This document shows, in pieces, positions 5,511-29,376 of a stretch of DNA of 36,380 nucleotides. Position 1 is the first letter of the stretch. Each line of letters starts with the position of its first letter. Below the pieces are notes generated by a model. That model ran no database searches and was not told where the DNA came from. It saw only the letters and a list, made by a program, of their open reading frames with translations. The position numbers and the translations under genes were made by a program. The stretch is from an uncultured Elusimicrobia bacterium (GTDB lineage: Bacteria > Elusimicrobiota > Elusimicrobia > Elusimicrobiales > UBA9959): NCBI GenBank assembly GCA_903879915.1, contig CAIRNJ010000112.1, positions 1 through 36,380 on the forward strand, given 5' to 3'.

Positions 5511-5837
5511 ATGGGCATTTGGACCAACGCTTTTAAACTGCCGAACCATCCTGACGTTACCGCCGGGGAAAAGGTTTACCTGTCCGGGCTGGCGGACAAG
5601 GTCCGCGGCCGGAAGATGGAATTCACCACCGCGCTGGCCATGGAGAGCACCAAACCGCTCCATAATCTGGGCGCCCAGGCGCTGATCTTCCTTACTCCGA
5701 TACTCTCCGAGCTGTTCGGCCGCGCGGAGTCGGAAAGAATAATCAAGCTGCTGGAAAACCCCAAAGCTGTGGATTTCTTTTTACAAGAACTTAACGGAAC
5801 CTCTAACGGAGCCAATCATGTCAAAAAAAGACCTTGA
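5511..5837 (+). CDS. Small helical protein of unknown function, overlapping the MutL-family gene
   Basis: A 108-residue protein that I do not recognise. It looks mainly alpha-helical and soluble, with a segment of hydrophobic character (LGAQALIFLTPILSELF, about residues 53-69) and no signal peptide or cysteine. Its last 20 bases overlap the start of the MutL-family gene in another frame, which implies translational coupling and probably a linked function. The likely start is the ATG right behind a TAGAAT box. It may be an adaptor or accessory subunit for the ATPase that follows; that is inferred from position only. Confidence 0.7.
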   Translation: MGIWTNAFKLPNHPDVTAGEKVYLSGLADKVRGRKMEFTTALAMESTKPLHNLGAQALIFLTPILSELFGRAESERIIKLLENPKAVDFFLQELNGTSNGANHVKKRP

Positions 5838-7611
5838 GATCATAATCGCCACGGACTGCGGCAGTACCACCACTAAAGCCATCCTGATAGAGAAAAAAGG
5901 CGACACTTACCGCCAGACCTTCAGGGGCGAAGCCCCCACCACGGTGGAGGCTCCGTTCGAGGACGTCACCAAAGGCGTGCTCAACGCCATCACCGAGGTG
6001 GAGGAACTTTCCGGCCGGAAGATCCTGGACGGCGAAAAGATCCTGACGCCCAACAACGGCAACGTAGGCGCGGATATCTACGTTTCCACCTCTTCGGCCG
6101 GCGGCGGCCTGCAGATGATGGTGGCCGGGGCCGTCAAGGCCATGACCGGCGAATCGGCGCAGCGCTGCGCGCTGGGCGCCGGCGCCATCGTGATGGACGT
6201 GCTGGCCTCCAACGACGGCCGCGCGGACCACGAGAAGATAGAGCGCATCCGCCAGCTGCGGCCCGACATGATGCTGCTTTCCGGCGGCACCGACGGCGGC
6301 AGCGTGACCCACGTGGTGGAGCTGGCGCAGTTCCTGAAGGCCGCCGACCCCAAGCCGCGCCTGGGCGCCTCCTATAAGCTTCCCGTAATTTACGCCGGCA
6401 ACAACAAGGCGCAGGGGCAGGTAAAGGAGATCCTGGACTCGAGCACGGCGCTGATCGTCACCGAGAACCTGCGGCCTTCCCTGGAGAAAGAGAACCTGAT
6501 GCCGGCCCGCCACAAGATCCACGACATTTTCCTCGAGCACGTGATGCAGCAGGCCCCCGGCTACCCTAAGCTGATGAAGATGGTGGGCGCGCCTATCATG
6601 CCCACCCCCGCGGCCGTAGGCGTGATGACGGAGAAGTTCGCCAAGGCCAATAATTTCAACGTGCTGGCCGTGGACATCGGCGGCGCCACCACCGACGTGT
6701 TCTCTGTCTTCTCGGAAGTATTCAACCGCACCGTCAGCGCCAACCTCGGCATGAGCTACTCCATCTCCAACGTGATGGCCGAGGCCGGGCTGCCCAATAT
6801 CCTGCGCTGGCTGCCTTTCAGCCTCGACGAGCAGGACCTCAGGAACCGCCTGAAGAACAAGATGATACGCCCCACCACCATCCCGGCTACGGTTGAGGAC
6901 CTGCAGGTGGAGCACGCCGTGGCGCGCGAAGCGCTGCGCCTGGCCTTCGACCAGCACAAGGCGCTGGCGGTGGGCCTGAAGGGCGTGCAGCAGGAGCGCT
7001 CCATCTCCGACGCTTTTGCCCAGACCTCCAGCGGCCAGAGCCTCATCAGCCTGATGAACCTTAACTACATCATCGGTTCGGGCGGGATCCTCGCGCATTC
7101 CCCCCGCCGCACGCAGTCCATGCTTATGATGATAGACGCCTACCAGCCGGAAGGCGTTACCATGATAGCCGTCGACTCCATCTTCATGATGCCGCACCTG
7201 GGCGTGCTGGCGCAGATAAGCGAGAAAGCGGCCCTCGACGTGTTCTACCACGATTGCCTGGTGCGGCTGGGCACCTGCCTGGCCCCGAAAGGCCTGGACA
7301 AGGAAGGCCAGGTCATAATGGACTGGGAACTCGTCGAGGAGGGCGGCCGGCGCCACAGCGGCGAGCTGCGCTTCGGCGATATCCTGCACGTCCCGTTCGA
7401 ATCCCCCAAGGGCAAGGCCATCGTGAAGCCGGCCAAGGGCTTCGACATGGGCGCCGGGCCCGGCAACAAGGTGGAAGCGAATATAGAGGGCGGCGTGGTG
7501 GGCGTGGTGCTCGACGGGCGCGGCAGGCCGTTCGACCTGGCCAAGACGCCGGCCAAGCGCATCGCCGACCTCAACAAGTGGTACAAGGCGATGGACATGT
7601 ATCCGGTGTAA
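5818..7611 (+). CDS. MutL/GlmL-family ASKHA ATPase (glutamate mutase L-like)
   Basis: A 597-residue member of the family that includes MutL/GlmL, the protein encoded beside the B12-dependent glutamate mutase and thought to act as its ATP-driven reactivation or assembly factor. The actin/Hsp70-type nucleotide fold is visible: phosphate-1 loop ATDCGSTTTKAI at 11-22, a Gly-rich stretch SSAGGGLQMMVAGA near 98-111, GGTDGG near 161, and the second phosphate loop VDIGGATTD at 285-293. It is longer than the clostridial GlmL proteins I recall (about 460 residues); residues from about 480 form an extra C-terminal domain. ACGGAG precedes the ATG. No mutase subunit gene (MutE/GlmE, MutS/GlmS) is in the window, so glutamate mutase reactivation is not supported here. 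The partner is probably one of the neighbours. Confidence 0.88.
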   Translation: MSKKDLEIIIATDCGSTTTKAILIEKKGDTYRQTFRGEAPTTVEAPFEDVTKGVLNAITEVEELSGRKILDGEKILTPNNGNVGADIYVSTSSAGGGLQMMVAGAVKAMTGESAQRCALGAGAIVMDVLASNDGRADHEKIERIRQLRPDMMLLSGGTDGGSVTHVVELAQFLKAADPKPRLGASYKLPVIYAGNNKAQGQVKEILDSSTALIVTENLRPSLEKENLMPARHKIHDIFLEHVMQQAPGYPKLMKMVGAPIMPTPAAVGVMTEKFAKANNFNVLAVDIGGATTDVFSVFSEVFNRTVSANLGMSYSISNVMAEAGLPNILRWLPFSLDEQDLRNRLKNKMIRPTTIPATVEDLQVEHAVAREALRLAFDQHKALAVGLKGVQQERSISDAFAQTSSGQSLISLMNLNYIIGSGGILAHSPRRTQSMLMMIDAYQPEGVTMIAVDSIFMMPHLGVLAQISEKAALDVFYHDCLVRLGTCLAPKGLDKEGQVIMDWELVEEGGRRHSGELRFGDILHVPFESPKGKAIVKPAKGFDMGAGPGNKVEANIEGGVVGVVLDGRGRPFDLAKTPAKRIADLNKWYKAMDMYPV

Positions 7612-7671
7612 GAACTGTCGGGGGTCGGGAGTCAGGAAAAAATTCCGCTTGGTTTTTTTAAGGAGAAATAT

Positions 7672-8796
7672 ATGGCGCACGCTTACACACCCGGTCTTAA
7701 GGTCATTCCCTGCACGGTGCTCAGGAAGAAAAGGCTGCTGCCTATTCCGGGCAAGGTGCTGGCGGAGCTGGGTAAAGAGGTGGAGGCCCTGGATATTGTG
7801 GCGCAGACGCAACTGCCCGGCAAGGTCTTCTCCGTCAACGTCGCCAACCGCCTGGCGGTGGGCCCCGAGGAGATCCCCGGCTTCATGCTCAAGAAGGAAG
7901 GCGACCCGATCCGGAAGGGCGAGATCCTCGCCGAGAACAAGCCCCTCGTTAAATGGTTCAAGACCGTAGTGGAGTCCCCGGTGGAGGGCACCGTTGAGAC
8001 CATCTCCACCGTGACGGGGCAGGTGCTGCTGCGCGAGCCGCCGAAAGTGCTGCCCATCAAGGCGTACGTAAAAGGCAAAGTGGTGGAAGTTACCCCCAAT
8101 TTCGGCGTGACCGTGGAGTCGGAAGGCACGTTCATCCAGGGCATTTTCGGCATAGGCGGCGAGACCAACGGCGAGATAGCGGTGGCCGTGGGCAGCCCCG
8201 ACGAGGACCTGACCCCGGAAGGGCTCAACGAGACGCACAAGGGGAAGATCGTCATCGGCGGCAAGCACGCGGGCCTGGCCACCATAAAGCGGGCGGTGGA
8301 ACTGGGCGTGCACGCCATCGTGGTGGGCGGCATCCACGACCGGGACCTGCGGCAGCTGCTGGGCTACGATATCGGCGTGGCCGTTACCGGCACCGAGCAG
8401 ATCGGCGTGACGATCATCGTCACCGAGGGCTTCGGCATGATCCCGATGGCCGAATACACTTTCAAGCTGCTTTCCTCCAGGAACGGAGAAAGGGCATCGG
8501 TTTCCGGCGCCACGCAGATCCGCGCCGGCGTAATGCGGCCCGAGATCCTGGTGCCCGGCTATCCGAAGAACGTGACCACCTGCAAGAAGGAACAGGGCCG
8601 CGGCTGGATAGAACCCGGCGACCCGGTGCGCATAATCCGCGAGCCCCATTTCGGCGTCATCGGCATCGTGAAGTCGCTCCCCCCCGAGCTTACCAAGGTG
8701 GGCAGCGAATCGCACGTGCGCGTGCTGGAAGTGGACCTCCCCGGCGGCGAGACGCTGGTGATCCCCAGGGCGAACATAGAAGTGCTTGAAAAGTGA
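7672..8796 (+). CDS. Barrel-sandwich hybrid plus KOW-domain protein, MutL-associated, function unknown
   Basis: A 374-residue cytoplasmic protein. Residues about 20-150 hold two stretches resembling lipoyl/barrel-sandwich hybrid folds (LPIPGKVLAELGKEVEALDI, then SPVEGTVETISTVTGQVLL), but without a lipoyl- or biotinyl-lysine motif. The middle (about 185-290) looks like an alpha/beta domain (GVHAIVVGGIHDRDLRQLL, GVTIIVTEGFGMIPMAEYTF, SGATQIRAGVMRPEILVP). The C-terminus (about 310-374) has the PGDPVRIIREPHFGVIGIV pattern of a KOW/SH3-like barrel. A clear AAGGAG lies at 7660-7665. The gene follows the MutL-family gene at 60 bases. I recall proteins of this design beside glutamate mutase L-like genes in Chloroflexota, but cannot check. 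No function is known to me. Confidence 0.8.
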   Translation: MAHAYTPGLKVIPCTVLRKKRLLPIPGKVLAELGKEVEALDIVAQTQLPGKVFSVNVANRLAVGPEEIPGFMLKKEGDPIRKGEILAENKPLVKWFKTVVESPVEGTVETISTVTGQVLLREPPKVLPIKAYVKGKVVEVTPNFGVTVESEGTFIQGIFGIGGETNGEIAVAVGSPDEDLTPEGLNETHKGKIVIGGKHAGLATIKRAVELGVHAIVVGGIHDRDLRQLLGYDIGVAVTGTEQIGVTIIVTEGFGMIPMAEYTFKLLSSRNGERASVSGATQIRAGVMRPEILVPGYPKNVTTCKKEQGRGWIEPGDPVRIIREPHFGVIGIVKSLPPELTKVGSESHVRVLEVDLPGGETLVIPRANIEVLEK

Positions 8797-8875: not shown

Positions 8876-10258
8876 ATGAAGATCATCCTGATAAACCCCA
8901 TCAACAGAAGCTATGTGATCATGCCGTCGCTGGGGCTAGGCTACCTGGCCAGCGAACTGCTCAAAGACAAGCATGAGGTGAGGATACTCAACTGTCTTAA
9001 GGAAAAGCTAACTTACGCCTCCTTCGCGGACCTGGTGCGGAAAGAACCTTTCGACATCTACGGTTTCCAGATGTTCTCCTACGATTTCAGTTCGCTGAAG
9101 AAACATCTCGAGATCGTAAAATCCATTAACCCGGCGGCCGTCACCGTCGCGGGCGGGGCGCATCCTTCGGGCGATCCCGCAGGGACCCTTAAGGCCCTTA
9201 AAGACCTGGATTTCGCTTTCCGCGGCGAGGCGGAGATAGGCTTCCGGAAACTTGCAGGGCATCTGGCGGCCGGCGGCCTGGACAAAGACCGGGCCGGGGT
9301 GCCCGGGCTGATCTGGCGGGACGGCAAGGAAGTGAAGGTCAACCCGCCCGGGCTGGTGGAAGACCTGGATTCCCTCTCTTTTCCCGCCTGGGACCTGCAG
9401 CGGCCCGACGAATATCCCCGCGCTCCGCACGGCGCGTTCGCCAAGAATTTTCCCACGGCGCCGCTGATCATAACCCGGAGCTGCCCGTTCCAGTGCACTT
9501 TCTGCGCCGGCAAAAGCATTTCGGGGACCCGGCTGCGCAAGAGAAGCATCGACAACGTCATCGCCGAAATAGAATACCTGAGCGATAACTTCGGGGTCAG
9601 GGAAATACATATCGAGGACGAATGTTTCACCATCCATAAAGCCCTGGTCCTGGAATTCTGCGGGAAGCTCTCCCGGAGCCGGGCGAAGGTCACGTGGGGG
9701 CTTCCGTCGGGCATAAGGCTGGACAGCATCGACCGCGACATGCTCAGGGTCATGGAGGAGGCGGGGTGCTATTCCGTAGCCGTCGGCGTGGAGTTCGGCT
9801 CGCAGCGCATCCTGGACCTGGCGAAGAAGAAGCTTACGCTGCAGATGATCCGGGAAAAAGTGGCGCTGCTCAACGAGACGAAGCTGAAGGTCACCGGCTT
9901 TTTCATGCTGGGCTTCCCCGGGGAGACGAAAGAAGAGATGCAGGCCACCATCGACCTGGCCCTTGAGCTGGACCTGGACCGGGCGCAGTTCAATAATTTC
10001 ATGCCGCTGCCGGGCAGCGAGCTGTGGGACGAGCTGGAAGAAAAAGGCCTGCTCGGGAACATTGATTTCGACAAGTTCTTCGTGCATAACGTGGCCTACT
10101 CCGGCACGGTGAGCCCGCAGGAACTGAAGCGGCTGCAGCGCAAAGCCTACCTGCGCTTTTACCTGAGGCCCGGGATAATCTTTAAACTTATAAAAGAGGT
10201 AACGTCGCTGGGACACCTGAATTATCTGTTCACCCGGTTCATCGACGCCGTCAAATGA
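8876..10258 (+). CDS. B12-binding domain radical SAM protein
   Basis: A 460-residue enzyme with an N-terminal cobalamin-binding-type Rossmann domain (about 1-150; begins KIILINP and contains GLGYLASELL and the VAGGAHPSGDP stretch) and a radical SAM barrel (about 190-400). The [4Fe-4S] cluster motif is C203, C207 and C210 in SCPFQCTFC. Later parts show the usual EDECF, GVEFGSQ and GFFMLGFPGET segments of the family. Such enzymes typically do methylations or carbon-skeleton changes on lipids, natural products or cofactors. The reaction cannot be told here. The stop overlaps the start of the GT-C glycosyltransferase by four bases (ATGA), so the pair likely acts on a cell-envelope or lipid-linked substrate. 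Unrelated to the flanking unknown operons by sequence. Confidence 0.9.
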   Translation: MKIILINPINRSYVIMPSLGLGYLASELLKDKHEVRILNCLKEKLTYASFADLVRKEPFDIYGFQMFSYDFSSLKKHLEIVKSINPAAVTVAGGAHPSGDPAGTLKALKDLDFAFRGEAEIGFRKLAGHLAAGGLDKDRAGVPGLIWRDGKEVKVNPPGLVEDLDSLSFPAWDLQRPDEYPRAPHGAFAKNFPTAPLIITRSCPFQCTFCAGKSISGTRLRKRSIDNVIAEIEYLSDNFGVREIHIEDECFTIHKALVLEFCGKLSRSRAKVTWGLPSGIRLDSIDRDMLRVMEEAGCYSVAVGVEFGSQRILDLAKKKLTLQMIREKVALLNETKLKVTGFFMLGFPGETKEEMQATIDLALELDLDRAQFNNFMPLPGSELWDELEEKGLLGNIDFDKFFVHNVAYSGTVSPQELKRLQRKAYLRFYLRPGIIFKLIKEVTSLGHLNYLFTRFIDAVK

Positions 10259-12642
10259 AGAAACTGAAGAAACCTCCCGCGCCCGTCAAAGAGCCCGAGC
10301 TTCGGCCGGTTCTCCCCGCGCTCGCGGTGCTGGCCGTGCTGGGCGTATGGGGCTGGGCGGTCGTCTCCAACTACTTCCGGCGCTTTCCTTTTTTCGGCCA
10401 AGAATTCCAGGACGCCCTTTTCTCGCTGACCCCCGCGGTCTTCTGGTACGGCTTCCTTCAGCAGTTCCTTAATATAGCGCTGGCCGCGTGGGTGGCCGCG
10501 GCCGCTTTCGGGACCGGCCTTTTTATTCTAGGGCGGCTGAAGCTCGCCATGGAGGACCCGGCCGAGAGGTTCGTCTTCGCCGAGGGCATCGGCCTGGTGG
10601 TCCTGACCTACCTTACGTACGGCCTGGGCTTCGCCGGCCTGCTTTATAAGGGCGTGTTTTACGCGGTCCTGGCGGCGCTGACCCCCCTCCTCTTCCTGCA
10701 GCCCGGCGCCGGGGTCCCGTCGCTGGCGGGCGTGGTCAGGTCGCGCCCGCTGAGCATCGTGCTGTTCCTGCTGACCGCGGCCGGCGTGCTGCTGAATTTC
10801 GTGCTGGCGCTTTCGCCCGAGTTCTTCTACGATTCGCTGGTCTATCACCTGGCTGTGCCGCAGTATTACATCCTGAGCCACAGGATAGTGAACATGCCGC
10901 AGACGTTCTTTTCCGATTTTCCGCTGAATATGGAGATGCTGTACCTTATCGGGCTGCTGCTCGGAGATTCCGTCCTCGCCAAGCTGCTGCAGTTCCTGAT
11001 GGGAGCGTTTTCCGCTTTCGCCGTGTATGCCTTCGCGAAGAAATATTTCAACAGGGAAACCGGCGTTCTCGCGGCGGCCATCTTCTATAGCATGCCGATG
11101 GCTGCCATCTGTTCGCGCAGCACGGGCACCGAGCTCGGGGTTACGTTCTTCCAGCTGCTGGGCTTCTGGGCGCTCTATAATTACCTTTATAGCGGGCCCC
11201 GGCTTGCCGTCTGGCTTGTCTTTTGCGGCGTTTTTTCCGGGATGGCGTGCGGCATGAAATATACCGGCGTGTTCTCGCTGGCGGCCATAATGGCGCTGCT
11301 GGCGCTCAAGCTTTACCGGGAAGGGGCGGATGTTAAGGGCATCGCGAAGAAGGTGGCCTTGACGGCCCTTGCCGCCGGCCTGCTGCTGGCGCCGATACTC
11401 ATAAAAAATTACGCGTACACGAAGAATCCCGTGCACCCGTACCTGTCCGGCATCTTCGGCCGGGTGGGCATCAGCGACGATAAAATGCAGATACTCATGG
11501 CCGAGACCAGCAAGCGCAACGGCTTCAAGCTCGGCGAGTACCTGAAGCTGCCCTGGGACCAGACGATGAACGGCAACACGGACGAGTCGTTCAGCGGCCC
11601 GGTGTTCCTGCTGTTCCTCCCCCTGCTGTTCCTGTTCAGGAACATAAACCCGAAAGCTAAATACCTGGCGGCCTATTTTGCGCTGATGTACCTGATGTGG
11701 AGCGGGATCTCGTATTACCTGCGGTATTTCCTGCCGGGCCTGGCGGTGCTGAGCCTGCTGACCGCGTATTTCCTGGTCAACAACGCGCTCAACAAATATC
11801 TGAAAGGCCTGCTGCTGGCCGCGGCCGCGTTCGGGGTGGGAGTGAATTTCTACTGGTCGGTGCTTTCCGCCAGCCTCGGCGACAGGCTGCCGGTGATCGA
11901 CGGCCGGGAAACGAAGGACGCTTACCTGGGCCGGGGCCACGTAGGCTATCCCTCCCCTTATTACAAGACGATCGTCTACCTGAACGCGACCCTGGACTCG
12001 GACGCGAAGGTGCTGTTTATAGGCGAGAACCGCGGCTATTACTCCGAGCGGCTGTTCGTGGCCGGCGCCGTGCACGACGACGCGATGCTGCTCAGGTGGA
12101 TAAAAGGCTGCAGGAACGAAGACGAACTTTACGCCGTCCTCGGCAGGGAAAAGGTCACCCATCTGCTGGTGAACCTGCGGGAAGGCACCCGGGTGCAGAG
12201 CTATAAAATATACACCTGGGACGCGCGGGAGCTTAAGCTCTTCAACCGGTTCTGGAAAAAATACGTGAAGGACGTCCATATGGAAGATGACGTCTATCTC
12301 TACCGGCTCGCTGCCGGCCCGGCCCCGGCGCCGGTGAATACCGTTTTCCTTATGTACATGCACGACTTGTTCTCCGTGCAGGAAAGCGGCGGTTCTAACG
12401 AGCGGGCGGCCGCGGCCGGGAACCTGCTGAAAGAGTTCCCGGAGGCCGCCGCGGAGTATTCGAACGGGATAAAACTGAGCCAGTACCTGGCCTATTTCGA
12501 CGGCCTTATGAACATGTCCCTGCTCGAGTACGCCAGGGGCAATAAAGCCGCCGCGCTGCAGCTGCTCCAGTTCGCGATGAAGAACAGGCCCGATCAGAAG
12601 AAGTATTTCGACCTGTACATCGCTCTCTCTCAACCTAAGTAG
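10255..12642 (+). CDS. GT-C fold membrane glycosyltransferase (PMT/ArnT-like)
   Basis: A 795-residue integral membrane protein. About 12 or more hydrophobic helices fill residues 20-545. The first large periplasmic loop holds the acidic/aromatic segment SPEFFYDSLVYHLAVPQYY (about 183-201), typical of GT-C enzymes that take a sugar from a polyprenyl-phosphate donor, with the Asp as probable catalytic residue. Residues about 550-795 form a periplasmic domain; the last 90 or so look helical and TPR-like. The start overlaps the stop of the B12 radical SAM gene by four bases. The likely role is periplasmic glycosylation of a lipid, protein or polysaccharide; donor and acceptor are unknown. Confidence 0.82.
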   Translation: MKKLKKPPAPVKEPELRPVLPALAVLAVLGVWGWAVVSNYFRRFPFFGQEFQDALFSLTPAVFWYGFLQQFLNIALAAWVAAAAFGTGLFILGRLKLAMEDPAERFVFAEGIGLVVLTYLTYGLGFAGLLYKGVFYAVLAALTPLLFLQPGAGVPSLAGVVRSRPLSIVLFLLTAAGVLLNFVLALSPEFFYDSLVYHLAVPQYYILSHRIVNMPQTFFSDFPLNMEMLYLIGLLLGDSVLAKLLQFLMGAFSAFAVYAFAKKYFNRETGVLAAAIFYSMPMAAICSRSTGTELGVTFFQLLGFWALYNYLYSGPRLAVWLVFCGVFSGMACGMKYTGVFSLAAIMALLALKLYREGADVKGIAKKVALTALAAGLLLAPILIKNYAYTKNPVHPYLSGIFGRVGISDDKMQILMAETSKRNGFKLGEYLKLPWDQTMNGNTDESFSGPVFLLFLPLLFLFRNINPKAKYLAAYFALMYLMWSGISYYLRYFLPGLAVLSLLTAYFLVNNALNKYLKGLLLAAAAFGVGVNFYWSVLSASLGDRLPVIDGRETKDAYLGRGHVGYPSPYYKTIVYLNATLDSDAKVLFIGENRGYYSERLFVAGAVHDDAMLLRWIKGCRNEDELYAVLGREKVTHLLVNLREGTRVQSYKIYTWDARELKLFNRFWKKYVKDVHMEDDVYLYRLAAGPAPAPVNTVFLMYMHDLFSVQESGGSNERAAAAGNLLKEFPEAAAEYSNGIKLSQYLAYFDGLMNMSLLEYARGNKAAALQLLQFAMKNRPDQKKYFDLYIALSQPK

Positions 12643-12687
12643 CGGCGGGCGAGAATGTTTCTTGCCGCTAATCCTGATAAAAATGTA

Positions 12688-12693
12688 TATTAT
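12688..12693 (+). promoter_or_regulatory. -10 box (TATTAT), probable leaderless promoter of the membrane operon
   Basis: TATTAT lies seven bases before ATG 12701 in an AT-rich patch without a ribosome binding site. A TTGCCG at 12662-12667 is a possible -35 box but the spacer is 20 bases. An overlapping alternative is TATATT at 12686-12691. Confidence 0.4.
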
Positions 12694-12700
12694 GAACGTT

Positions 12701-13966
12701 ATGATAAAAAACAAACTCGGTTTCGCTTTAGTTCTATTGTTCGCGGCCGCGAATACGTTCGCGGCCAAACCCGGCCCGGCCGCTAAAAAGGCCACCGCGG
12801 ATCCCCTTCTCCCCGTCGCCGGCCTGACGGTCATAGACATGCCTTACGACGTCGGAGGAACGGCTCTGCTTAAATGGGACGTTCGCCCTTCGGACACGCC
12901 CGACGTGACCTACCAGGTCTATGTTTCCTCCCTCGAGACCGGCGGCTGGATAAAAGCCGAAGAGTTCCCCGCGGATACCCGTACCGGCAAGGACATCGAT
13001 CTCCCTTTCTGGGCCTGGGACACTTCCGTAAAAGAGCACGCGGTGAAGGTGGAGCTTAACAATTACTACGGCGAGGCGCAGTCCACCGGCTCGCTCTTCC
13101 ATTTTAAAGTGGCGGCGGTCAGGGGCAGGAATACCGCCGAGAGCGAAGTCGTTTCCGTCGTGACGCTCAGCAACTGGTTCAGGCTGGACCGCATGAACAA
13201 CCTGGTCCTGCTGCTGATCCTCATCGTCGCTTTCTTCTGGGCGGTTTCCCACGCCAAGCGCAAAGGGCTGTTCATCCGCCGCATAGCCGGCCTGGACGCC
13301 ATCGACGAGGCCATCGGCCGCGCCACCGAGATGGGCAAGCCCATCTATTACATGACCGGCATCGGCTCGATGAGCCAGATCTCCACCATCGCTTCCGCGT
13401 TCATCCTGGGCGAAGTTTCCAAAAAGGTCGCGCAGTACGACAGCCAGATCAAGGTCCCCCATTACGACCCCATCGTGATGACGGTCTGCAAGGAAGTCGT
13501 GAAGCAGTCCTATATGGAAGCGGGCCGCCCCGATTCCTACCGCGACGACATCAACTTCTTCGTCAGCCAGGACCAGTTCTCCTACGCCGCCTCGGTGGAC
13601 GGCATGATCTCGCGTGAAAAACCCGCCGCCTGCTTCTTCATGGGCTACTTCATGGCGGAGTCCCTGCTGCTCGCCGAAGTCGGCGCCACCTCGGGCGCCA
13701 TCCAGATAGCGGGCACCGACGTCGAGCACCAGCTGCCTTTCTTCTTCACGGCCTGCGATTATACGCTGATGGGCGAAGAGCTCTACGCGGCCGGGGCCTA
13801 TCTTTCCAAGGAACCAATGCTGATGAGCGCTCTCAAGGTGCAGGACCTGGGAAAACTGATAGTGATGGTGTCCGTGCTGTTCGGCATCATCTTCGTCGGG
13901 GTGGGCGCCTGGCGCCACTGGGACCCGTTCGTACAGGTGATCCTTAATATGTTCAAGGCCTACTAA
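12701..13966 (+). CDS. DUF6754-like membrane protein with periplasmic FN3-like domain
   Basis: A 421-residue protein heading a four-gene operon. It has a classic signal peptide (residues 1-21) and a periplasmic beta-sandwich resembling fibronectin type III (about 35-150: GTALLKWDVRP, VTYQVYVSS). A membrane helix follows at about 168-186, then a basic segment (HAKRKGLFIRR) that places the next domain in the cytoplasm. The 200-residue alpha/beta domain (GKPIYYMTGIGSM, KPAACFFMGYFMAESLLLAE, GAIQIAGTDVEHQLPFF) is what I recall as DUF6754. The last helix (387-405) returns to the membrane. The start 12701 gives an exact signal peptide and fits the -10 box; in-frame ATGs at 12683 and 12692 are less likely. 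No enzyme motif is evident; function unknown. Confidence 0.75.
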   Translation: MIKNKLGFALVLLFAAANTFAAKPGPAAKKATADPLLPVAGLTVIDMPYDVGGTALLKWDVRPSDTPDVTYQVYVSSLETGGWIKAEEFPADTRTGKDIDLPFWAWDTSVKEHAVKVELNNYYGEAQSTGSLFHFKVAAVRGRNTAESEVVSVVTLSNWFRLDRMNNLVLLLILIVAFFWAVSHAKRKGLFIRRIAGLDAIDEAIGRATEMGKPIYYMTGIGSMSQISTIASAFILGEVSKKVAQYDSQIKVPHYDPIVMTVCKEVVKQSYMEAGRPDSYRDDINFFVSQDQFSYAASVDGMISREKPAACFFMGYFMAESLLLAEVGATSGAIQIAGTDVEHQLPFFFTACDYTLMGEELYAAGAYLSKEPMLMSALKVQDLGKLIVMVSVLFGIIFVGVGAWRHWDPFVQVILNMFKAY

Positions 13967-13968
13967 CC

Positions 13969-14637
13969 ATGAAACTGATAAAAAAACAAATACCGCTGGC
14001 TATAGTGTTCGTCTTCGGCGTGCTCACGCTGATCTCTTACTACATCCCCCATAAGAAATCCGTGGATTTCATGGAGATGATGAACAAGTGGGAGAATATC
14101 GTGGCCGCGTTCGCCTTCTTCCTGGGGCTTATCAGCCTCTTCTATTCGCATTACAGCAAGATAGCCAGGAAAGTGGACGGCTGGGGCTACAGCCTGTTCG
14201 TCTACATCGGCTTCCTGGCCATGGTCGTCCCCGCGATATACTGCCACGGCAAGCAGATGGACGCCGCCGGCAAGACCGCGCTGGGCTGGTCTTTCAGCTT
14301 CATCTATAACCCGCTGAGCGCCACGATGTTCGCGATCCTCGCCTTCTACATCGTGTCTACCGCGTACCGCTCGTTCAGGATAAAATCCCTGCAGGCCTTC
14401 GTGCTGTTCGTGGCCGCGTTCATCCTGATCCTCGGCAAGGTGCCGCTGGGGCAGATTATCTGGACCTCGGTGCTGGGCTGGACCGGCGCGGGCGTGGACC
14501 AGGTCATAGACTGGATCATGAGCTATCCCGCCGTGGCCGGCAAGCGCGGCATCATGATAGGCATCGCTATCGGCGCCGTGGTCACCTCGTTCAAGATCAT
14601 CTTCGGCATCGAAAGACAATACATGGGGAAGGACTGA
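13969..14637 (+). CDS. Polytopic membrane protein of unknown function (operon gene 2)
   Basis: A 222-residue integral membrane protein with about six hydrophobic helices (near 8-26, 43-60, 73-92, 107-128, 137-160 and 193-212). Polar loops carry several Lys/Asp residues but no recognisable motif. It starts two bases after the stop of the DUF6754-like gene and stops four bases before the next gene, so the four genes are one transcription and probably one assembly unit. I do not recognise the family. A structural or channel-forming subunit of a membrane complex is possible. Confidence 0.8.
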   Translation: MKLIKKQIPLAIVFVFGVLTLISYYIPHKKSVDFMEMMNKWENIVAAFAFFLGLISLFYSHYSKIARKVDGWGYSLFVYIGFLAMVVPAIYCHGKQMDAAGKTALGWSFSFIYNPLSATMFAILAFYIVSTAYRSFRIKSLQAFVLFVAAFILILGKVPLGQIIWTSVLGWTGAGVDQVIDWIMSYPAVAGKRGIMIGIAIGAVVTSFKIIFGIERQYMGKD

Positions 14638-14641
14638 ACAT

Positions 14642-15466
14642 ATGCTTAAGGAAAAACTCCAGAAATTTTTCAAGTTGGACAGGCGGTGGATCTTCCTGCT
14701 GCTGGCTATCGTGCTTTTCGCTCCCATCATAAAGCCCATCGGCCTGCCGAACAAGACCATCTCCCGGGACGTGCAGAACGCGTACAGCTACATGGACACC
14801 CTGGCTCCCGGCTCCTTCGTGCTTTTCTCGCTGGACTACGACCCCTCGACCAGGCCGGAACTGCAGCCGCAGGCCATTGCGATGATCCGCCACGCTTTCC
14901 AGAAGAACCTGCGCGTAGGCGTTGTCACCTATATAGCCGGCGCCACCGGCCTTATCCAGCAGGCTTTCGAGAAAGTGCCCAAGGAATACAACAAGGTTTA
15001 CGGCAAAGACTACGTGATCTTCCCGTACATGGCCAACGCCGTGGCCGTGCTGACGCAGATGTCCTCCGATTTCTACGGCATCTACGACAAGGACCAGGAC
15101 GGCACCGACGCCAGGACCCTGCCGGTGATGCAGGGCATTAAGAATTATAAGAACATGGCGCTGGTGGTGAACATCACCGGCACCTCGATGCTGGATATCT
15201 GGGTGGCTTACGTGGGCGACAAGTACAAGGTGCCGGTCATCGGCGGCGTGACGGCCATCAGTCAGCCGGGCTACGGCCCTTACCTTCAGACCGGCCAGCT
15301 TAAAGGCCTTATCGGCGGCATGAAGGGCGCGGCGGAGTACGAGTCCCTGATCAAGCAGCCGGGCAAAGGCACTTCCGGGATAGATTCCCTGAACCTGGCC
15401 CACCTGCTGGTGCTGGCGCTCATACTGACTTCCAATATCATACTTTTGATAATTAAGTATCTGTAA
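14642..15466 (+). CDS. Twice-anchored Rossmann-like domain protein (operon gene 3)
   Basis: A 274-residue protein. The Lys-rich N-terminus (MLKEKLQKFFK) should stay in the cytoplasm. A helix at about 17-35 then leads to a domain of about 210 residues predicted outside, and a C-terminal helix (about 252-271) returns. The domain alternates strands and helices (GSFVLFSLDYDPS, LRVGVVTYIAGATGLI, MALVVNITGTSML, VPVIGGVTAISQPGYGPYL, GMKGAAEYESL). Its layout runs parallel to the cytoplasmic domain of the first operon protein. No catalytic motif is recognised. AAGGA precedes the start by about eight bases. Function unknown. Confidence 0.78.
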   Translation: MLKEKLQKFFKLDRRWIFLLLAIVLFAPIIKPIGLPNKTISRDVQNAYSYMDTLAPGSFVLFSLDYDPSTRPELQPQAIAMIRHAFQKNLRVGVVTYIAGATGLIQQAFEKVPKEYNKVYGKDYVIFPYMANAVAVLTQMSSDFYGIYDKDQDGTDARTLPVMQGIKNYKNMALVVNITGTSMLDIWVAYVGDKYKVPVIGGVTAISQPGYGPYLQTGQLKGLIGGMKGAAEYESLIKQPGKGTSGIDSLNLAHLLVLALILTSNIILLIIKYL

Positions 15467-15515
15467 ACCGCGGTCCGCGGAGGACCCGGGCGGAAAACGT
15501 TCATAAGAGGTGACT

Positions 15516-16256
15516 ATGTCAGAAACATGGATGATAGCGGGCGCGTGGATCGCCGCGGGCCTTACGATATTTCTTTTCAGTTTCCTTTACAAGGATAACC
15601 CTTTCTTCAAGATCGCGGAACATCTTTACCTGGGCGCCGGCATGGGCTGGTGGTTCCAGGTCTATGTTTACAACATCCTGGGGCCAAAGGTCTGGACGCC
15701 GCTCGTGGTCAACCACGACTGGATGGTCCTGATCCCCGCCGTCCTGGGGATCTCGCTGGTCACGCAGTTCATCCCCAAGATCTCGTGGATCTCGCGCTAC
15801 GGCTTCACGTTCCTGATGGGTTACGGCTCCGGCCTGGCCATCCCGGCCAGCCTCTCCACGGACTTCATCAACCAGATCGGCGGCACCATAAAGCCGCTCT
15901 CGATGATGGCTTCCATGACCCCGTTCGCCATCTTCAACTCGCTGCTGATCGCGTTCGGCGTGGTCTGCGTGCTGTTCTATTTCTTCTTCTCCGTCGAGCA
16001 TAAGGGCCACGTTAAGACGGTTTCCAACATAGGCATCTACTTCCTGATGATCTATTTCGGAGCGGCCTTCGGCAACACGGTCATGGCCCGCTTCTCGCTG
16101 CTGTACGGCCGGTTCGACGACCTGTATACCTTCTCGGACAAGCATTATTTCTACGCTTCGCAGCTGATAATGCTGGCCATGGTGGTTTACTTCCTGATCC
16201 ATAATTTCATGGGCAAGGACAAGAAGGAAATTGCCGAAGACGAGGCCGCGGGCTGA
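15516..16256 (+). CDS. Polytopic membrane protein of unknown function (operon gene 4)
   Basis: A 246-residue integral membrane protein with about seven helices and a short charged cytoplasmic tail (GKDKKEIAEDEAAG). Gly-rich, aromatic stretches such as LYLGAGMGWWFQVYVYN (about 36-52) and FTFLMGYGSGLAIPASLS (about 93-110) may line a cavity, but no known transporter signature is evident. ATG 15516 is preferred to GTG 15510 because the Shine-Dalgarno sequence AAGAGGTG overlaps the GTG. It is the last gene of the operon, followed by a strong terminator. Function unknown; it probably forms one complex with the three genes before it. Confidence 0.8.
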   Translation: MSETWMIAGAWIAAGLTIFLFSFLYKDNPFFKIAEHLYLGAGMGWWFQVYVYNILGPKVWTPLVVNHDWMVLIPAVLGISLVTQFIPKISWISRYGFTFLMGYGSGLAIPASLSTDFINQIGGTIKPLSMMASMTPFAIFNSLLIAFGVVCVLFYFFFSVEHKGHVKTVSNIGIYFLMIYFGAAFGNTVMARFSLLYGRFDDLYTFSDKHYFYASQLIMLAMVVYFLIHNFMGKDKKEIAEDEAAG

Positions 16257-16280
16257 GCGGTACCGCAGCAGCATAAAAGA

Positions 16281-16311
16281 AAGCGGCTGCCGGTTTTCCC
16301 GGCAGCCGCTT
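16281..16311. terminator. Bidirectional intrinsic terminator
   Basis: A perfect 13-bp stem, AAGCGGCTGCCGG (16281-16293) and its complement (16299-16311), loop of five bases, with T-rich runs on both strands. It separates the membrane operon (plus) from the convergent parvulin-like gene (minus) and can serve both. Confidence 0.9.
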
Positions 16312-16341
16312 TTCTTTGTATCCGCGCCGTCAGTCCGACGG

Positions 16342-17208
16342 TTACGGCATCACTTCTATCTTGGCTTTCTGCCGCAGTTCCACCGCGAGTTCCGGCAGCT
16401 TCTGGGAGAGGGCCTGGTTGAGCATCATAACTTTCAGCTCGTCCTTGATCTTCTCGAATTCGGCCGGCTGCGGCTGCCTGTGCTCTTCCACGTAGAAGAT
16501 GCTGAAGCCTTTGCCCGTGGGGAAGACTTTGCTGTACTTCTTGGCTTCAAGGCTGAACAGTTCTTTTTCTATTTCGGGAAGCAGCGTGCCCTTGGTGATG
16601 TAGCCGAGGCTGCCGTTGTCCTTCTTGAGCTTGGCGTCGGCCGATTTCATGGCCGAGAGCTTGCCGAAGTCCGCGCCTACCGCCAGGGATTCGAGAGCGG
16701 CGTCCGCCTCGGCCTGGGTGTTGACGAAGATCTGGCTTACTTTCACGGCTTCGGGCGTGACCAGCTTTTCCTTGTTGGTGTCGAAGAAGTTCTTCACGTC
16801 CTCGTCCGTTACGGCCACTTTCTTTATGGACGTTACGGTGTCGCGGACCGTAAGCTGGCGGGTGAACAGGTCCTTAAGGTCGGCGTCCGTCCAGCCCACT
16901 GATTTCAGGTTCTTCTCGAACTGTTCCTTGTCCATGTCGGCGGACAGCGCGGTTATCCTCGCTTCGACCTCTTTGGGGTCGGCTTTAATGTTGAGCCGGG
17001 CGGCTTCGTCCAGCACCAGTTTCTCGTCTATCAGTTCCGAAAGGCCGGCCGCGCCGTGCTGCCACCAGAGCTTGGTGGTAAGGTCGCCGGCGGTGATAGT
17101 CTTTCCGTTCACTACGGCTATTATGCTTTTTTCGGGCTTAACGGTGGCGGCCTGAAGGCCCGTCGCGCAAAGCGCGAAGACCGCGGCCAGTAGTATTGTT
17201 CTTTTCAT
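16342..17208 (-). CDS. Periplasmic parvulin-type peptidyl-prolyl isomerase/chaperone (SurA/PrsA-like), catalytic histidines replaced
   Basis: A 288-residue secreted protein: signal peptide (1-20), a SurA-N-like helical chaperone domain (about 25-145) and a parvulin domain (about 150-245) with GADFGKLSAMKSAD and GSLGYITKGTLLPEIEKELFSL. It should help fold exported or outer-membrane proteins. In active parvulins two histidines sit in the ASHILV and GYHII strands. Here these read VSQIFV (Gln159) and GFSIFYV (Ser236), so isomerase activity is doubtful and a chaperone-only role is likely. The ribosome binding site AAGGAGG lies at 17219-17225. The MscS gene is 32 bases upstream on the same strand. 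Confidence 0.87.
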   Translation of the reverse strand: MKRTILLAAVFALCATGLQAATVKPEKSIIAVVNGKTITAGDLTTKLWWQHGAAGLSELIDEKLVLDEAARLNIKADPKEVEARITALSADMDKEQFEKNLKSVGWTDADLKDLFTRQLTVRDTVTSIKKVAVTDEDVKNFFDTNKEKLVTPEAVKVSQIFVNTQAEADAALESLAVGADFGKLSAMKSADAKLKKDNGSLGYITKGTLLPEIEKELFSLEAKKYSKVFPTGKGFSIFYVEEHRQPQPAEFEKIKDELKVMMLNQALSQKLPELAVELRQKAKIEVMP

Positions 17209-17240
17209 TTGATCCTTTCCTCCTTGGTTCTTTGTCCCCG

Positions 17241-18320
17241 CTAACCGGGAACCTGCTGACTAACAAATAGGGTCTGGGTGGGATAGGCGAAGCTTATGCC
17301 TTCGGCCCGGAAATCTTCGGTTATCCTGAGGAGTATTTCCTCGTGGGTCCTGGCGTAGAGCGCGTAGTCGCCGCTGGTCACGTAATACACGGTCTCAAGG
17401 TCGAGCGAGGAGGCCGCGCAGGCGGCCAGGTGGGAGCGGTCGAATTGCGCGGCGGGCACGGAGGCTACCGCTGCTTTTATTATAGCCGTAGCGCGGCGCA
17501 GTTTGTCAGCGGGCGTCTGGCAGGTGACGCCCAGTTTGAAAGCCACCCGGCGCCGTGCCATCTGGTTGTAGTTGCGCAGGCCGCCGGAGAGCAGCTTGGA
17601 GTTGGAAATTATTATCAGCTCCCCCGAAAGGCTGCGGACGCGGGTGGATTTTATGCCGACATGTTCTATGTTCCCTTCGATATCGTCGACCGTGATATAA
17701 TCGCCCGTCTTGAAAGGCCTGTCGAGCAGTATCACGAAAAAGTTAAAAAGGTCGCCCAGTATGGCCTGGGCGGCCAGCGCCACGGCCACGCCGCCTATGC
17801 CGAGCCCGGCTACCAGCGTGGTGATGTTCACCCCGAGGTTGTCCAGAACGAAAAGTACCGCCGCCGCCCAGACCAATACCTTGAGCAGCACCTGGGCGCC
17901 GTACATCACGGAATCCTTCGCCTCGTCGGACAGGCCGCGGTCACCCACCGCTTTTTGTATCCAGTAGGAGAGCAGGTCCTGGATTATGGTGACGGCCCTG
18001 TAGGTGAAAACTACGAGCAGCAGGATGTTCAGGGCCGTGTTGAAAGCGGGGGTGCGGTGCAGGTAATGCGTGGCCACGAAAAAAGCCACCAGGAAGTATT
18101 CCAGGCGCTTGAACTTCTCCAGCATAGCCACGGCCAGGTCGTCCAGGTCGGTTTCCGTGTTTTTGGCCAGCGCTTTAAGGCGGGCGATGCCCGCGGTCTT
18201 TATCAGCTGCAGCAGCGCCCAGGCCGCCGCAAAAGCCGCCAGGGCGCATAAAAAGGCCAGCGGGGTATTGCCAAGTATTTCAGTTTCACTGAACCATCCC
18301 GGAAAAAAGCCAGTTCCCAT
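17241..18320 (-). CDS. MscS family mechanosensitive channel
   Basis: A 359-residue inner-membrane channel that releases solutes during osmotic downshock. Four hydrophobic helices precede the MscS pore helix (about 170-195: LVAGLGIGGVAVALAAQAIL, with the Gly/Ala packing pattern), followed by the conserved LGDLFNFFVILLDRPFKTGD and the beta domain. The cytoplasmic C-terminal domain is complete. Promoter: TATAAT (18333-18328) seven bases before the ATG, with TTTACA 19 bases further upstream, and no ribosome binding site. The four minus-strand genes from 20422 to 16342 are closely spaced but the channel has its own promoter. Confidence 0.94.
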   Translation of the reverse strand: MGTGFFPGWFSETEILGNTPLAFLCALAAFAAAWALLQLIKTAGIARLKALAKNTETDLDDLAVAMLEKFKRLEYFLVAFFVATHYLHRTPAFNTALNILLLVVFTYRAVTIIQDLLSYWIQKAVGDRGLSDEAKDSVMYGAQVLLKVLVWAAAVLFVLDNLGVNITTLVAGLGIGGVAVALAAQAILGDLFNFFVILLDRPFKTGDYITVDDIEGNIEHVGIKSTRVRSLSGELIIISNSKLLSGGLRNYNQMARRRVAFKLGVTCQTPADKLRRATAIIKAAVASVPAAQFDRSHLAACAASSLDLETVYYVTSGDYALYARTHEEILLRITEDFRAEGISFAYPTQTLFVSQQVPG

Positions 18321-25513: not shown

Positions 25514-25915
25514 TTATTTGTAATGCCTGGTCAGCGCCGCGCGGCTGGTGTGGGCCAGCTCGAAGTCCTGGGTCATTATCAGCGCGTCCTTGGGGCAGGT
25601 CTCCACGCACTGGGCGCAGTACACGCAATGGTCCAGGTGCATGAAGCAGTCGAATTTCCTTTTGGCGGGCACCGGGGGCTGACCCTCCGCCTGTACCGGC
25701 GCCGGGGGCTGCTCGGCCGAGAGCTTTATCTCTATGGCCTTGGCCGGGCAGACGCGCACGCACATCTGGCAGCCGATGCACTTGGGCGAGTCGAAGTCGA
25801 TGCGGCCGCGGAACCTTTCGGTGATCTTCGCTTTTTCGAAAGGATAGGCGCAGGTGGCGGGCTTCTTGAACAGATGCCTCATTACTTCACCGAAGACTCT
25901 TGCGGGTTTTATCAT
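25514..25915 (-). CDS. NuoI-like 2[4Fe-4S] ferredoxin subunit of group 4 hydrogenase
   Basis: A 133-residue electron-transfer subunit that should carry electrons between an external donor such as ferredoxin and the small subunit. Two [4Fe-4S] motifs are present: Cys46, 49, 52, 56 (CIGCQMCVRVCP) and Cys97, 100, 103, 107 (CVYCAQCVETCP). The N-terminal LFKKPAT...YPFEKAKITERFRGRI is typical of NuoI/MbhN-type proteins that dock to the membrane arm. A Pro/Ala/Gln-rich insert (about 66-86) lies between the two clusters. It is the last gene of the operon, starts six bases after the H-like gene, and precedes the terminator at 25463. Confidence 0.93.
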   Translation of the reverse strand: MIKPARVFGEVMRHLFKKPATCAYPFEKAKITERFRGRIDFDSPKCIGCQMCVRVCPAKAIEIKLSAEQPPAPVQAEGQPPVPAKRKFDCFMHLDHCVYCAQCVETCPKDALIMTQDFELAHTSRAALTRHYK

Positions 25916-25921
25916 GACGGG

Positions 25922-26872
25922 TTATCCTAATTTGTACTTTAAGAGAATATCGACGAGTATCTGGAACATCGCCACCGGGGCCAGGTATTTCCAGCAGAAG
26001 TTCACCATCTGCTCTATGCGTATGCGGGCCATCAGCACTTTCAGCAGGGCCAGCAGGAAGGTGACGAACAGCGTTTTTAACAGGAACACGGGGATGGCCG
26101 CCCAGCCCGTCACGCCCAGCGAACCGCCCAGGAACACGGCGTTGAGCAGCGCCGCGCCCACTACCAGTTCCATGTCGATGGCCAGGTAGAAGAAGCCCAG
26201 CAGGCGGCCGGAATATTCCGTGAACTGCCCGCCCACTATCTCGTTCTTTGAATGCGGGATGTCGAACGGCATGCGCTCGAGCTTGCCCTGCAGGGCCAGG
26301 ATGGCCGCCAGGAAGCCGGGCAGCTGCGCCGCTATCAGCAGCGGTTTCGCCGCGTAGAACGCCGAGATCTCGGTGAGGTTCCAGGAGCCGGCGAGGATGG
26401 CCGGGCCGATGATGGAAAGCATCAGCGGCACTTCGTAGGCGAAAAGCTGCGTCATAACGCGCATGGCGCCCACCGTGGCATAGGGGCTCGTGGAGCTCCA
26501 GCCGGCCAGGAAGAACGTGACCGTGGGGATGGTGAGCAGGTAGATCACCGCCACCATGTCGCCCTGGAAGCTGTACAGCGCGTGCGCGCCCACCGGGATG
26601 GAGACGATGGCGGTCATCACGGCGGCCATCGCGAAGAAAGGCAGCAGCCTGAACATCTTCGAGTCGGCGGCGTCGGGCACGATCACTTCCTTGGCCAGCA
26701 GCTTCAGGAAGTCGGCCAGCGGCTGCACCCAGGGCGGGCCCATTCTGTTCTGGAAGCAGGCGCAGAGCTTCCTGTCCACCCATTGAAGGGAAAGGCCGTA
26801 GAGGGCCAGGAACAGGAAGCCCGGGAAGATTATTATGTAAGCCAGCGAAGGCAGTATTGAATCCGATGTCAT
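25922..26872 (-). CDS. NuoH-like membrane subunit of group 4 hydrogenase
   Basis: A 316-residue integral membrane protein with about eight helices that links the peripheral arm to the ion-pumping arm. Conserved pieces are WVDRKLCACFQNRMGPPWVQPLADFLKLLAKE (about 31-62) and LERMPFDIPHSKNEIVGGQFTEYSGR (about 197-222), the loop that in complex I and hydrogenases contacts the catalytic subunits. DIPHSKNE replaces the more usual DLPEAE of complex I. It lies between the large-subunit gene (21 bases upstream) and the ferredoxin gene. Confidence 0.95.
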   Translation of the reverse strand: MTSDSILPSLAYIIIFPGFLFLALYGLSLQWVDRKLCACFQNRMGPPWVQPLADFLKLLAKEVIVPDAADSKMFRLLPFFAMAAVMTAIVSIPVGAHALYSFQGDMVAVIYLLTIPTVTFFLAGWSSTSPYATVGAMRVMTQLFAYEVPLMLSIIGPAILAGSWNLTEISAFYAAKPLLIAAQLPGFLAAILALQGKLERMPFDIPHSKNEIVGGQFTEYSGRLLGFFYLAIDMELVVGAALLNAVFLGGSLGVTGWAAIPVFLLKTLFVTFLLALLKVLMARIRIEQMVNFCWKYLAPVAMFQILVDILLKYKLG

Positions 26873-26893
26873 GGTTTCCTTGAACTCCCGATC

Positions 26894-28087
26894 TTAAAGC
26901 TTGGAGAAGTCGATGCCGCGGTGCTTGTAATGCTCGATGCCCAGCTTGCGCAGCTCTTCCCAGCCGTATACCGCCATTTTCCCTTTCTTCTGGTCCCAGA
27001 CCGCGGCGCGGTCGGTGCAGGACATGCAGGGGTCGATGGCGGCGATGACCAGCGGCACGTCGGCCAGCCACCCGCCTTCCAGCATGTAGGACACGCTCTG
27101 CAGGTTCGCCATCGTCGGGGCGCGCACTTTCAGGCGCTCGGGCTTGTCGGTGCCGTTGGACTTCAGGTAATGGATGTCCTCGCCGCGGGGCGCCTCGTAG
27201 TGGTTCACGGCTTCGCCGGGGGCTATCTTCATCGGCACCTTCACCGAGATGGGGCCTTCCGGCAGGTTGTTTATCACCTGGTTGATCATCTTGTAGGATT
27301 CCACCAGCTCCAGCGCGCGCACCACCAGGCGCCCGAAGACGTCGTTGGTGTTGTGCGTGATCAGCTTGAAATCCAGCTTGTCGTAGAGCAGGTAGGGCTC
27401 GTCCTTGCGCACGTCGCGGGCTATGCCGGAGGCGCGGGCGGTGGGGCCTACGGCGCCGCGCTCGAGGGCCACTTCGGGCGGCAGCCGGCCCACGTCGGCG
27501 GTGCGGGCGGCTATCGTAGGCTCTTCGAGGGCCAGCTTTATGTAATACTGGGTGCGGCCTTCCAGGAATTTGATGCGCTTGAGCACTTCGGCCTTCTGCT
27601 CGGCCGAAACGTCGCGGCGCACGCCGCCTATGGTGTTGATCGAGTAGTGCACGCGGTTGCCGCTCAGGAGCTCCAGGCAGTCCAGCACCTGCTCGCGGTC
27701 GCGCCACGTGTACATGAACAGCGTCTCGAAGCCCATCTCGTAGCCGGCCACGCCCAGCCACAGCAGGTGGCTGTGCACGCGCTCCAGCTCCGCTATCAGC
27801 GTGCGGATGGCCAGCGCCCGCTGCGGAACCTCGGCCTTGGCCAGTTCCTCGACGTTGGTGATATAGGTTGTGGTGTGCGAGTGCGAGCAGATGCCGCAGA
27901 CGCGCTCTATCAGGTAAAGGTTCTGGATGTAGGTGCGGCTCTCGGCGGCCTTCTCCATGCCGCGGTGGTTGTAGCCCAGGTTTATCGTCGAGCCTGAGAT
28001 CTGCTCGCCTTCGAGCACCAGCATGAAATTCTCGGGCTCTTTGAGGGCGGGGTGCTGCGGGCCGAACGGGATGGTTATTTTTGCCAT
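26894..28087 (-). CDS. Group 4 [NiFe] hydrogenase large subunit (NuoD-like)
   Basis: A 397-residue catalytic subunit. Complex I NuoD proteins lack the nickel ligands, but this one has both motifs: ERVCGICSHSH with Cys64 and Cys67, and DPCMSCTDR with Cys354 and Cys357. All four metal-binding cysteines are therefore present, so a [NiFe] site that makes or consumes H2 is expected. The C-terminal motif ends in Arg rather than His, as in group 4 enzymes of the HycE/Mbh type. About 37 residues follow Arg360 and are the likely peptide removed by a maturation endopeptidase. The gene starts one base after the C-like gene. No hyp maturation genes or protease are in the window. Confidence 0.93.
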   Translation of the reverse strand: MAKITIPFGPQHPALKEPENFMLVLEGEQISGSTINLGYNHRGMEKAAESRTYIQNLYLIERVCGICSHSHTTTYITNVEELAKAEVPQRALAIRTLIAELERVHSHLLWLGVAGYEMGFETLFMYTWRDREQVLDCLELLSGNRVHYSINTIGGVRRDVSAEQKAEVLKRIKFLEGRTQYYIKLALEEPTIAARTADVGRLPPEVALERGAVGPTARASGIARDVRKDEPYLLYDKLDFKLITHNTNDVFGRLVVRALELVESYKMINQVINNLPEGPISVKVPMKIAPGEAVNHYEAPRGEDIHYLKSNGTDKPERLKVRAPTMANLQSVSYMLEGGWLADVPLVIAAIDPCMSCTDRAAVWDQKKGKMAVYGWEELRKLGIEHYKHRGIDFSKL

Positions 28088-28088
28088 G

Positions 28089-28583
28089 TTATTTCGTCTC
28101 CGACTTAAGAAGGGCGGCCTGCTGGGCCAGGTAATCCTCGGTCTTCCAGTCCTTGCGCAGCGGGTACTGGCCTACGGGGAAGTCTTCGGCTAAAGGGTAG
28201 CGGCGGCCGGGCGGCAGGCCCAGCACTTTTATGCCGAGCGTGTCCTCGAGCTCTTTCTCGTAGGAAACGGCCACGGGGAAAACGGCCAGGATGCTGGGGA
28301 TCTCGGGTTTGGCGCGGGGCGTTCTTACCTTCACGGTCACCAGCATGGCGTTGTTGTTCATGTGGTAGCAGGCGCCCAGGTTCTCCCCCTCGTCGAAACC
28401 GGTCACGGTGGACAGGTACTGGAAACCCTCGGCCTTCATCCAGGCCAGGACCTCGGGCAGCGCGGCGGGCGCCAGGTCCAGCCACACGCGGTTCCTGCGC
28501 TGCACCAGCGCGTTCGTGACGGAGCCGGGGAACTTCGCTTCCAGCGCCGCTTTAATTTTTTCTTCTTGGGTAAATTCGGTCAT
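28089..28583 (-). CDS. NuoC-like subunit of group 4 hydrogenase
   Basis: A 164-residue soluble subunit of the complex I 30-kDa/HycE-N family that packs against the large subunit. Visible family pieces are LAPAALPEVLAWMKAEGFQYLSTVTGFDEG (about 36-65), a central strand pair (MLVTVKVR), and VSYEKELEDTLGIKVLGLPPGRRYPLAEDFP (about 106-136). C and D are separate genes here, as in most complex I operons and unlike the fused HycE. Six bases separate it from the small-subunit gene. Confidence 0.92.
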   Translation of the reverse strand: MTEFTQEEKIKAALEAKFPGSVTNALVQRRNRVWLDLAPAALPEVLAWMKAEGFQYLSTVTGFDEGENLGACYHMNNNAMLVTVKVRTPRAKPEIPSILAVFPVAVSYEKELEDTLGIKVLGLPPGRRYPLAEDFPVGQYPLRKDWKTEDYLAQQAALLKSETK

Positions 28584-28589
28584 TTTTCC

Positions 28590-29033: not shown

Positions 29034-29036
29034 TTT

Positions 29037-29372: not shown

Positions 29373-29376
29373 GGCT

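Follow-up and report, generated by a model that had tools for sequence, protein, structure and literature searches.

A four-gene membrane cassette headed by a DUF6754 protein and its soluble gene partners, including a MutL-family ATPase, in Elusimicrobiota

The window, which is the whole stretch of 36,380 nucleotides analysed here, carries a run of genes on the plus strand that ends in four membrane protein genes, here called g1 to g4. A trio of soluble proteins (5511-8796) comes first, then the genes of a radical SAM protein and of a PMT glycosyltransferase, and then g1, all on the same strand. The features are as follows.

5511-5837, plus strand: P0002, soluble protein of 108 aa without a known family, leading the conserved upstream trio
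5818-7611, plus strand: MutL/GlmL-like ASKHA-type ATPase of 597 aa, assigned by a PF13941 match and alignment
7672-8796, plus strand: P0001, soluble protein of 374 aa, with a weak NqrA-type match and placed here by co-occurrence
8876-10258, plus strand: B12-binding radical SAM protein, a variable insert in the gene run and not part of the core
10255-12642, plus strand: PMT_2-type glycosyltransferase, a frequent, non-universal neighbour outside the core
12701-13966, plus strand: g1, 421 aa, assigned by a PF20539 profile match, an AlphaFold model, FN3 structural matches and topology
13969-14637, plus strand: g2, 222 aa, six TM helices, N-in/C-in by charge, without a known family
14642-15466, plus strand: g3, 274 aa, a predicted Rossmann-like domain between two TM helices, without a known family
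15516-16256, plus strand: g4, 246 aa, about seven TM helices, without a known family
16279-16313: bidirectional intrinsic terminator, separating g4 from a convergent SurA-like gene

The first-pass annotation had described four open reading frames at 12701-16256, and the ORF coordinates bear this out, with intergenic gaps of 2, 4 and 49 bases. The last gap is counted to the ATG at 15516, the start of g4, which has AGAGGTG upstream; the listed ORF opens at GTG 15510. The strong terminator noted after g4 was also recovered, with 15 pairs, activity predicted in both directions and a folding z-score of -5.65; none of 200 shuffled sequences was as stable. The promoter proposed before g1 turned out weak and unconvincing: there is a single 9/12 match at 12662-12691, in a region that has 8 matches where 4.0 +/- 1.6 were expected. 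Only 58 bases separate the start of g1 from the preceding gene, which runs in the same direction, and the transcript may therefore originate before the 5' region of g1 itself. An operon starting at g1 was likewise not supported, as the conserved unit also has P0002, the MutL/GlmL-like ATPase and P0001 upstream.

The product of g1 is composed of a signal peptide, an FN3-like extracytoplasmic domain, a TM helix, a cytoplasmic DUF6754 domain and a second TM helix. The assignment of the head gene to DUF6754 was clearly confirmed, as g1 scored 370.4 bits against PF20539 (Pfam curated cut-off 27) and its residues 157-400 cover nearly the whole model. An AlphaFold model built from an alignment of 36 sequences (mean pLDDT 82) predicts the DUF6754 domain as a six-strand alternating alpha/beta fold with a Rossmann-like order of elements, flanked by the two TM helices. 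The outer part gave many FN3 structure matches (E near 1e-3, target TM-scores up to 0.75) and no Pfam FN3 hit. By the positive-inside rule the DUF6754 domain is probably cytoplasmic. This domain is far better conserved than the FN3 part (mean conservation 0.85 vs 0.50). A search of plasmids and phages yielded no g1 relatives, and none were confirmed among viral contigs.

The g3 protein was modelled in the same way, from a 36-sequence alignment (mean pLDDT 92, pTM 0.85). Again a six-strand alternating alpha/beta, Rossmann-like domain is predicted, set between two TM helices, which is probably extracytoplasmic according to the positive-inside rule. The two anchored alpha/beta domains of the first-pass annotation thus stand as anchored domains in the AlphaFold models of g1 and g3, with the qualification that charge places them on opposite sides of the membrane. 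Both domains show the same order of elements in the models. Nevertheless, hhalign revealed no sequence relationship and a profile permutation test scored below the shuffled mean; paralogy of g1 and g3 is therefore not claimed. A ligand pocket at the C-terminal ends of the strands was also considered, and conserved residues were not enriched there (p 0.17 and 0.79). Structure searches with g3 gave weak matches, with a best E of 1e-3 and TM-scores of at most 0.48 (at most 0.38 by query). The GPCR entries among them, which presumably stem from fused crystallisation domains in those structures, were not taken as a GPCR relationship.

A transmembrane sensor or regulator would fit the presence of domains on either side of the membrane. 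The outer FN3 and Rossmann-like domains would sense a signal and the ATPase would be under the control of the inner g1 domain; a variable outer FN3 part above a conserved inner g1 domain fits this as well. However, a sensor would not require two polytopic subunits, and the core has no kinase, cyclase or DNA-binding partner. We regard this role as very unlikely.

The remaining two proteins are polytopic. g2 has six TM helices with both termini inside by charge, and g4 has about seven hydrophobic segments, of which five are strong and two weaker (these two read by eye). Topology and the AlphaFold models thus agree with the protein types described at first, namely an FN3-plus-cytoplasmic-domain protein, a six-helix protein, a twice-anchored Rossmann-like protein and a seven-helix protein. 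Neither single-sequence searches of g2, g3 and g4 against Pfam and NCBIfam nor searches with their homologue sets against Pfam gave anything above a curated cut-off, and no credible relative of the three was found among known structures (PDB). In the profile searches run, none of g1 to g4 matched a characterised transporter or enzyme family, a result that would have counted against the first-pass reading. Several specific candidates were rejected. CrgA was considered for g2 (18.1 bits, cut-off 24.8). An ABC transporter was dismissed for g1 to g4, which match neither an ABC ATPase nor an ABC permease domain. A TRAP transporter was dismissed as well, with no DctM-type match in g2 or g4; the lone DctM of the carriers searched sits on contigs other than that of the cassette.

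The distribution of the cassette was surveyed in 295 genomes of the phylum of the window (Elusimicrobiota), many of them fragmented assemblies. DUF6754 was detected in 46 of the 295, mostly in one family and in two others, and control genomes were negative; all carriers belong to this phylum. Forty loci were fetched, of which one is cut by a contig end. The other 39 hold 40 complete cassettes, and each of the 40 contains all four genes, so that the expectation that the genes stay together in relatives holds within the phylum. At locus L055 the last two genes are swapped (g1-g2-g4-g3). At L064:7390-8166 (genome G022) g3 is split by a frame change, possibly an assembly error. A second whole cassette is present in two lineages, in tandem in G132 and as a diverged copy on a separate contig in G189 and G272; the extra G132 cassette groups with cassettes from other families. 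Many supported splits are common to the gene trees of g1 to g4; each comparison has 2-8 conflicts, and g1 is involved in most of them. Because all 40 cassettes are complete, the cassette is duplicated as a whole and the gene trees largely agree, g1 to g4 very likely encode one four-subunit membrane complex, as the first-pass annotation had suggested. It is true that most sampled carriers come from one family, as would be seen if g1 to g4 were merely co-inherited neighbours with no physical assembly. Yet the duplication of whole cassettes and the recurrence of the same genes in carriers of three further families argue against this, and we consider it highly improbable.

The conserved gene set extends beyond the cassette. 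At locus L036, from another family, P0002, the MutL-like ATPase and P0001 stand directly before g1, and all seven genes are contiguous. P0001 was detected in 47 and MutL above cut-off in 48 of the 295 genomes, and both sets nearly coincide with the cassette carriers. Beyond the home family, P0001 is present in 3 of 4 cassette carriers compared to 0 of 245 other genomes (p = 1.6e-6, Fisher's test, relatedness ignored). In the 295 genomes, P0001 and the cassette-type ATPase occur essentially only alongside the cassette. Apparent exceptions are mostly contig ends: in G283 and G278 g1 starts at a contig edge, and in G285 the contig ends after P0002 and MutL. G152 is the sole genome with cassette and P0002 in which P0001 and MutL were not found (assembly 94% complete). 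The MutL family member of G260, which lacks the cassette, is of a different kind. Together, the seven genes P0002, ATPase, P0001 and g1 to g4 likely represent one functional unit. Two irregularities were noted, an in-frame TAG within the P0001 relative at L097:7405-8448 (G283) and a clostripain-type peptidase (C11) gene between P0001 and g1 at L101:5237-6550 (G278), in a block of ORFs on the same strand.

The ATPase is a member of the MutL family (PF13941), as judged from its score of 425 bits, above the cut-off, and from the phosphate-binding motifs DCGSTTTK and DIGGATTD, which are intact and conserved in the alignment. Its core is the best-conserved part of the whole system. It remained below all three GlmL-type cut-offs (e.g. 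234.7 vs 475 for NF040745 and 168.9 vs 204 for TIGR01319) and carries a C-terminal part reaching beyond the GlmL models. Glutamate mutase (PF06368) was absent from all 20 cassette genomes tested and was found in the control G260, the only genome with a high-scoring GlmL, which has no cassette. Methylmalonyl-CoA mutase was present in just 3 of 20 carriers. Hence, the ATPase was not taken as a GlmL equivalog and a B12 mutase was rejected as its partner; its constant companion is the cassette system. MutL-family proteins in such genomes may be labelled glutamate mutase accessory proteins despite the missing mutase, which is likely a misannotation.

In P0001, a possible N-terminal barrel-sandwich region of NqrA type is followed by a conserved central portion and a KOW-like tail (the tail read by eye). 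Its residues 51-112 align weakly with NQRA_N (17.4 bits, cut-off 25), and an assignment as an NqrA/RnfC type protein was rejected at this score. The alignment nevertheless bears on the idea of an enzyme complex in the membrane, coupled for instance to redox chemistry or to ions, in which the GlmL-like ATPase would act as a reactivating chaperone and P0001 as an NqrA-like carrier subunit. Family annotation treats GlmL relatives as accessory ATPases of B12 enzymes, and polar residues are conserved in the g1 and g3 domains. However, no Fe-S, flavin or biotin motif was seen by eye, the NqrA match lies under its curated cut-off, and conservation does not cluster at the ends of the strands, the place expected for a pocket. 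Such an enzyme complex appears unlikely.

Further genes recur around the unit. The PMT glycosyltransferase is present in 29 of 41 regions compared. A SurA-like PPIase (30 of 41) and an MscS-type channel (29 of 41) occupy 16342-18320 of the window and are convergent with g4. A machine for building the envelope or handling proteins (export of lipid, glycan or protein) would agree with the frequent PMT and SurA-like neighbours and with GT-B glycosyltransferase halves, which often top the structural matches of g3. But other families lack these neighbours or have them at another place, and they lie outside the core. The g3 matches are weak and its domain is apparently extracytoplasmic, where nucleotide sugars are absent. 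A GT-B enzyme was rejected for g3, which has one Rossmann domain where two are required and gave no confident structural match. The envelope role is distinctly unlikely.

The radical SAM gene with a B12-binding domain (8876-10258), between P0001 and PMT, is in the run of few relatives only. An operon resembling a membrane-bound complex I or hydrogenase (25514-34925, minus strand; ferredoxin-like, NADHdh, 49-kDa, 20-kDa and antiporter-like subunits) is often near the cassette in relatives. A carboxyl transferase domain protein (35029-36378) is close to it in some, followed there by phosphopantetheinyl-transferase and polyketide-synthase-like genes. At L058:2546-4499 (G189), TatT and DctP stand directly before the second cassette; in the further genomes examined DctP is remote from the cassette, the only DctM of G189 is on another contig, and a TRAP link was rejected.

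In seven genomes the gene run includes oligopeptide ABC transporter (Opp) genes: between P0001 and g1 in G005 (where the run spans two contigs), G009, G010, G014 and G281, after P0001 in G062, and mixed in among the trio in G283. In G021, G152 and G156 they are adjacent. Strong SBP_bac_5 genes are near the cluster in 7 of 54 cases, which gives p of about 2e-6 to 3e-5 if loci are independent, and of about 0.1-0.2 when they are reduced to two events. Since SBP_bac_5 was not matched in 9 of 48 carrier genomes, the cassette does not require Opp. Opp proximity is a lead towards solute or peptide transport, weak if independent events are counted.

The analysis shows gene membership, order, co-occurrence, charge-based topology and predicted folds, while physical assembly, docking and ATP coupling are inferred. 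As best explanation of the whole, we tentatively favour an inner-membrane complex of g1 to g4 that works with the ATPase, P0001 and P0002 to move a solute. The four proteins would assemble into one obligate complex, with g2 and g4 as membrane core. g3 would present its Rossmann-like domain outside, and g1 its conserved Rossmann-like domain inside and the FN3-like part outside. The three cytosolic proteins may serve this complex. ATPase and P0001 might bind g1 at its highly conserved cytoplasmic side and could spend ATP on driving, gating or reactivating the complex. The single most likely activity, possibly peptide-related, would be to carry a solute across the membrane, which is a guess. Transport as such is a possibility we hold with some reserve, as the cassette contains no recognisable transporter domain and structure searches returned weak matches only. 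No known kind of system fitted, though the function may yet prove a remote variant of a familiar one. Provided that the seven genes belong to a single system, they encode a conserved membrane machine undescribed in the family databases and open literature searched, where no paper naming DUF6754, PF20539 or PF13941 was found.

Compared with known systems, DUF6754 (PF20539) is a domain of unknown function whose model excludes the FN3 part, g2 to g4 and the soluble trio. P0001 weakly resembles the N-terminal domain of NqrA, subunit A of the Na+-translocating NADH:quinone reductase, but the rest of NqrA is unmatched. The oligopeptide/dipeptide ABC transporter (SBP_bac_5, BPD_transp_1, oligo_HPY) sits in or beside the gene run in several genomes, whereas g1 to g4 have no ABC domain and are found without that transporter in most genomes. 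The ATPase shares its Pfam family and the intact motifs with GlmL/MutL, the methylaspartate (glutamate) mutase accessory protein, but differs from it (PF13941, NF040745, TIGR01319) by low scores, a longer C-terminus and mutase-less genomes. ASKHA ATPases of the GlmL/MutL kind have so far been linked to B12 mutase reactivation. An undescribed class of ATP-dependent membrane machine, in which one of them would instead drive or gate a complex of four membrane subunits bearing Rossmann-like domains on either face, is still doubtful; if true, an ASKHA ATPase powering a membrane complex so composed would amount to a new form of energy coupling.
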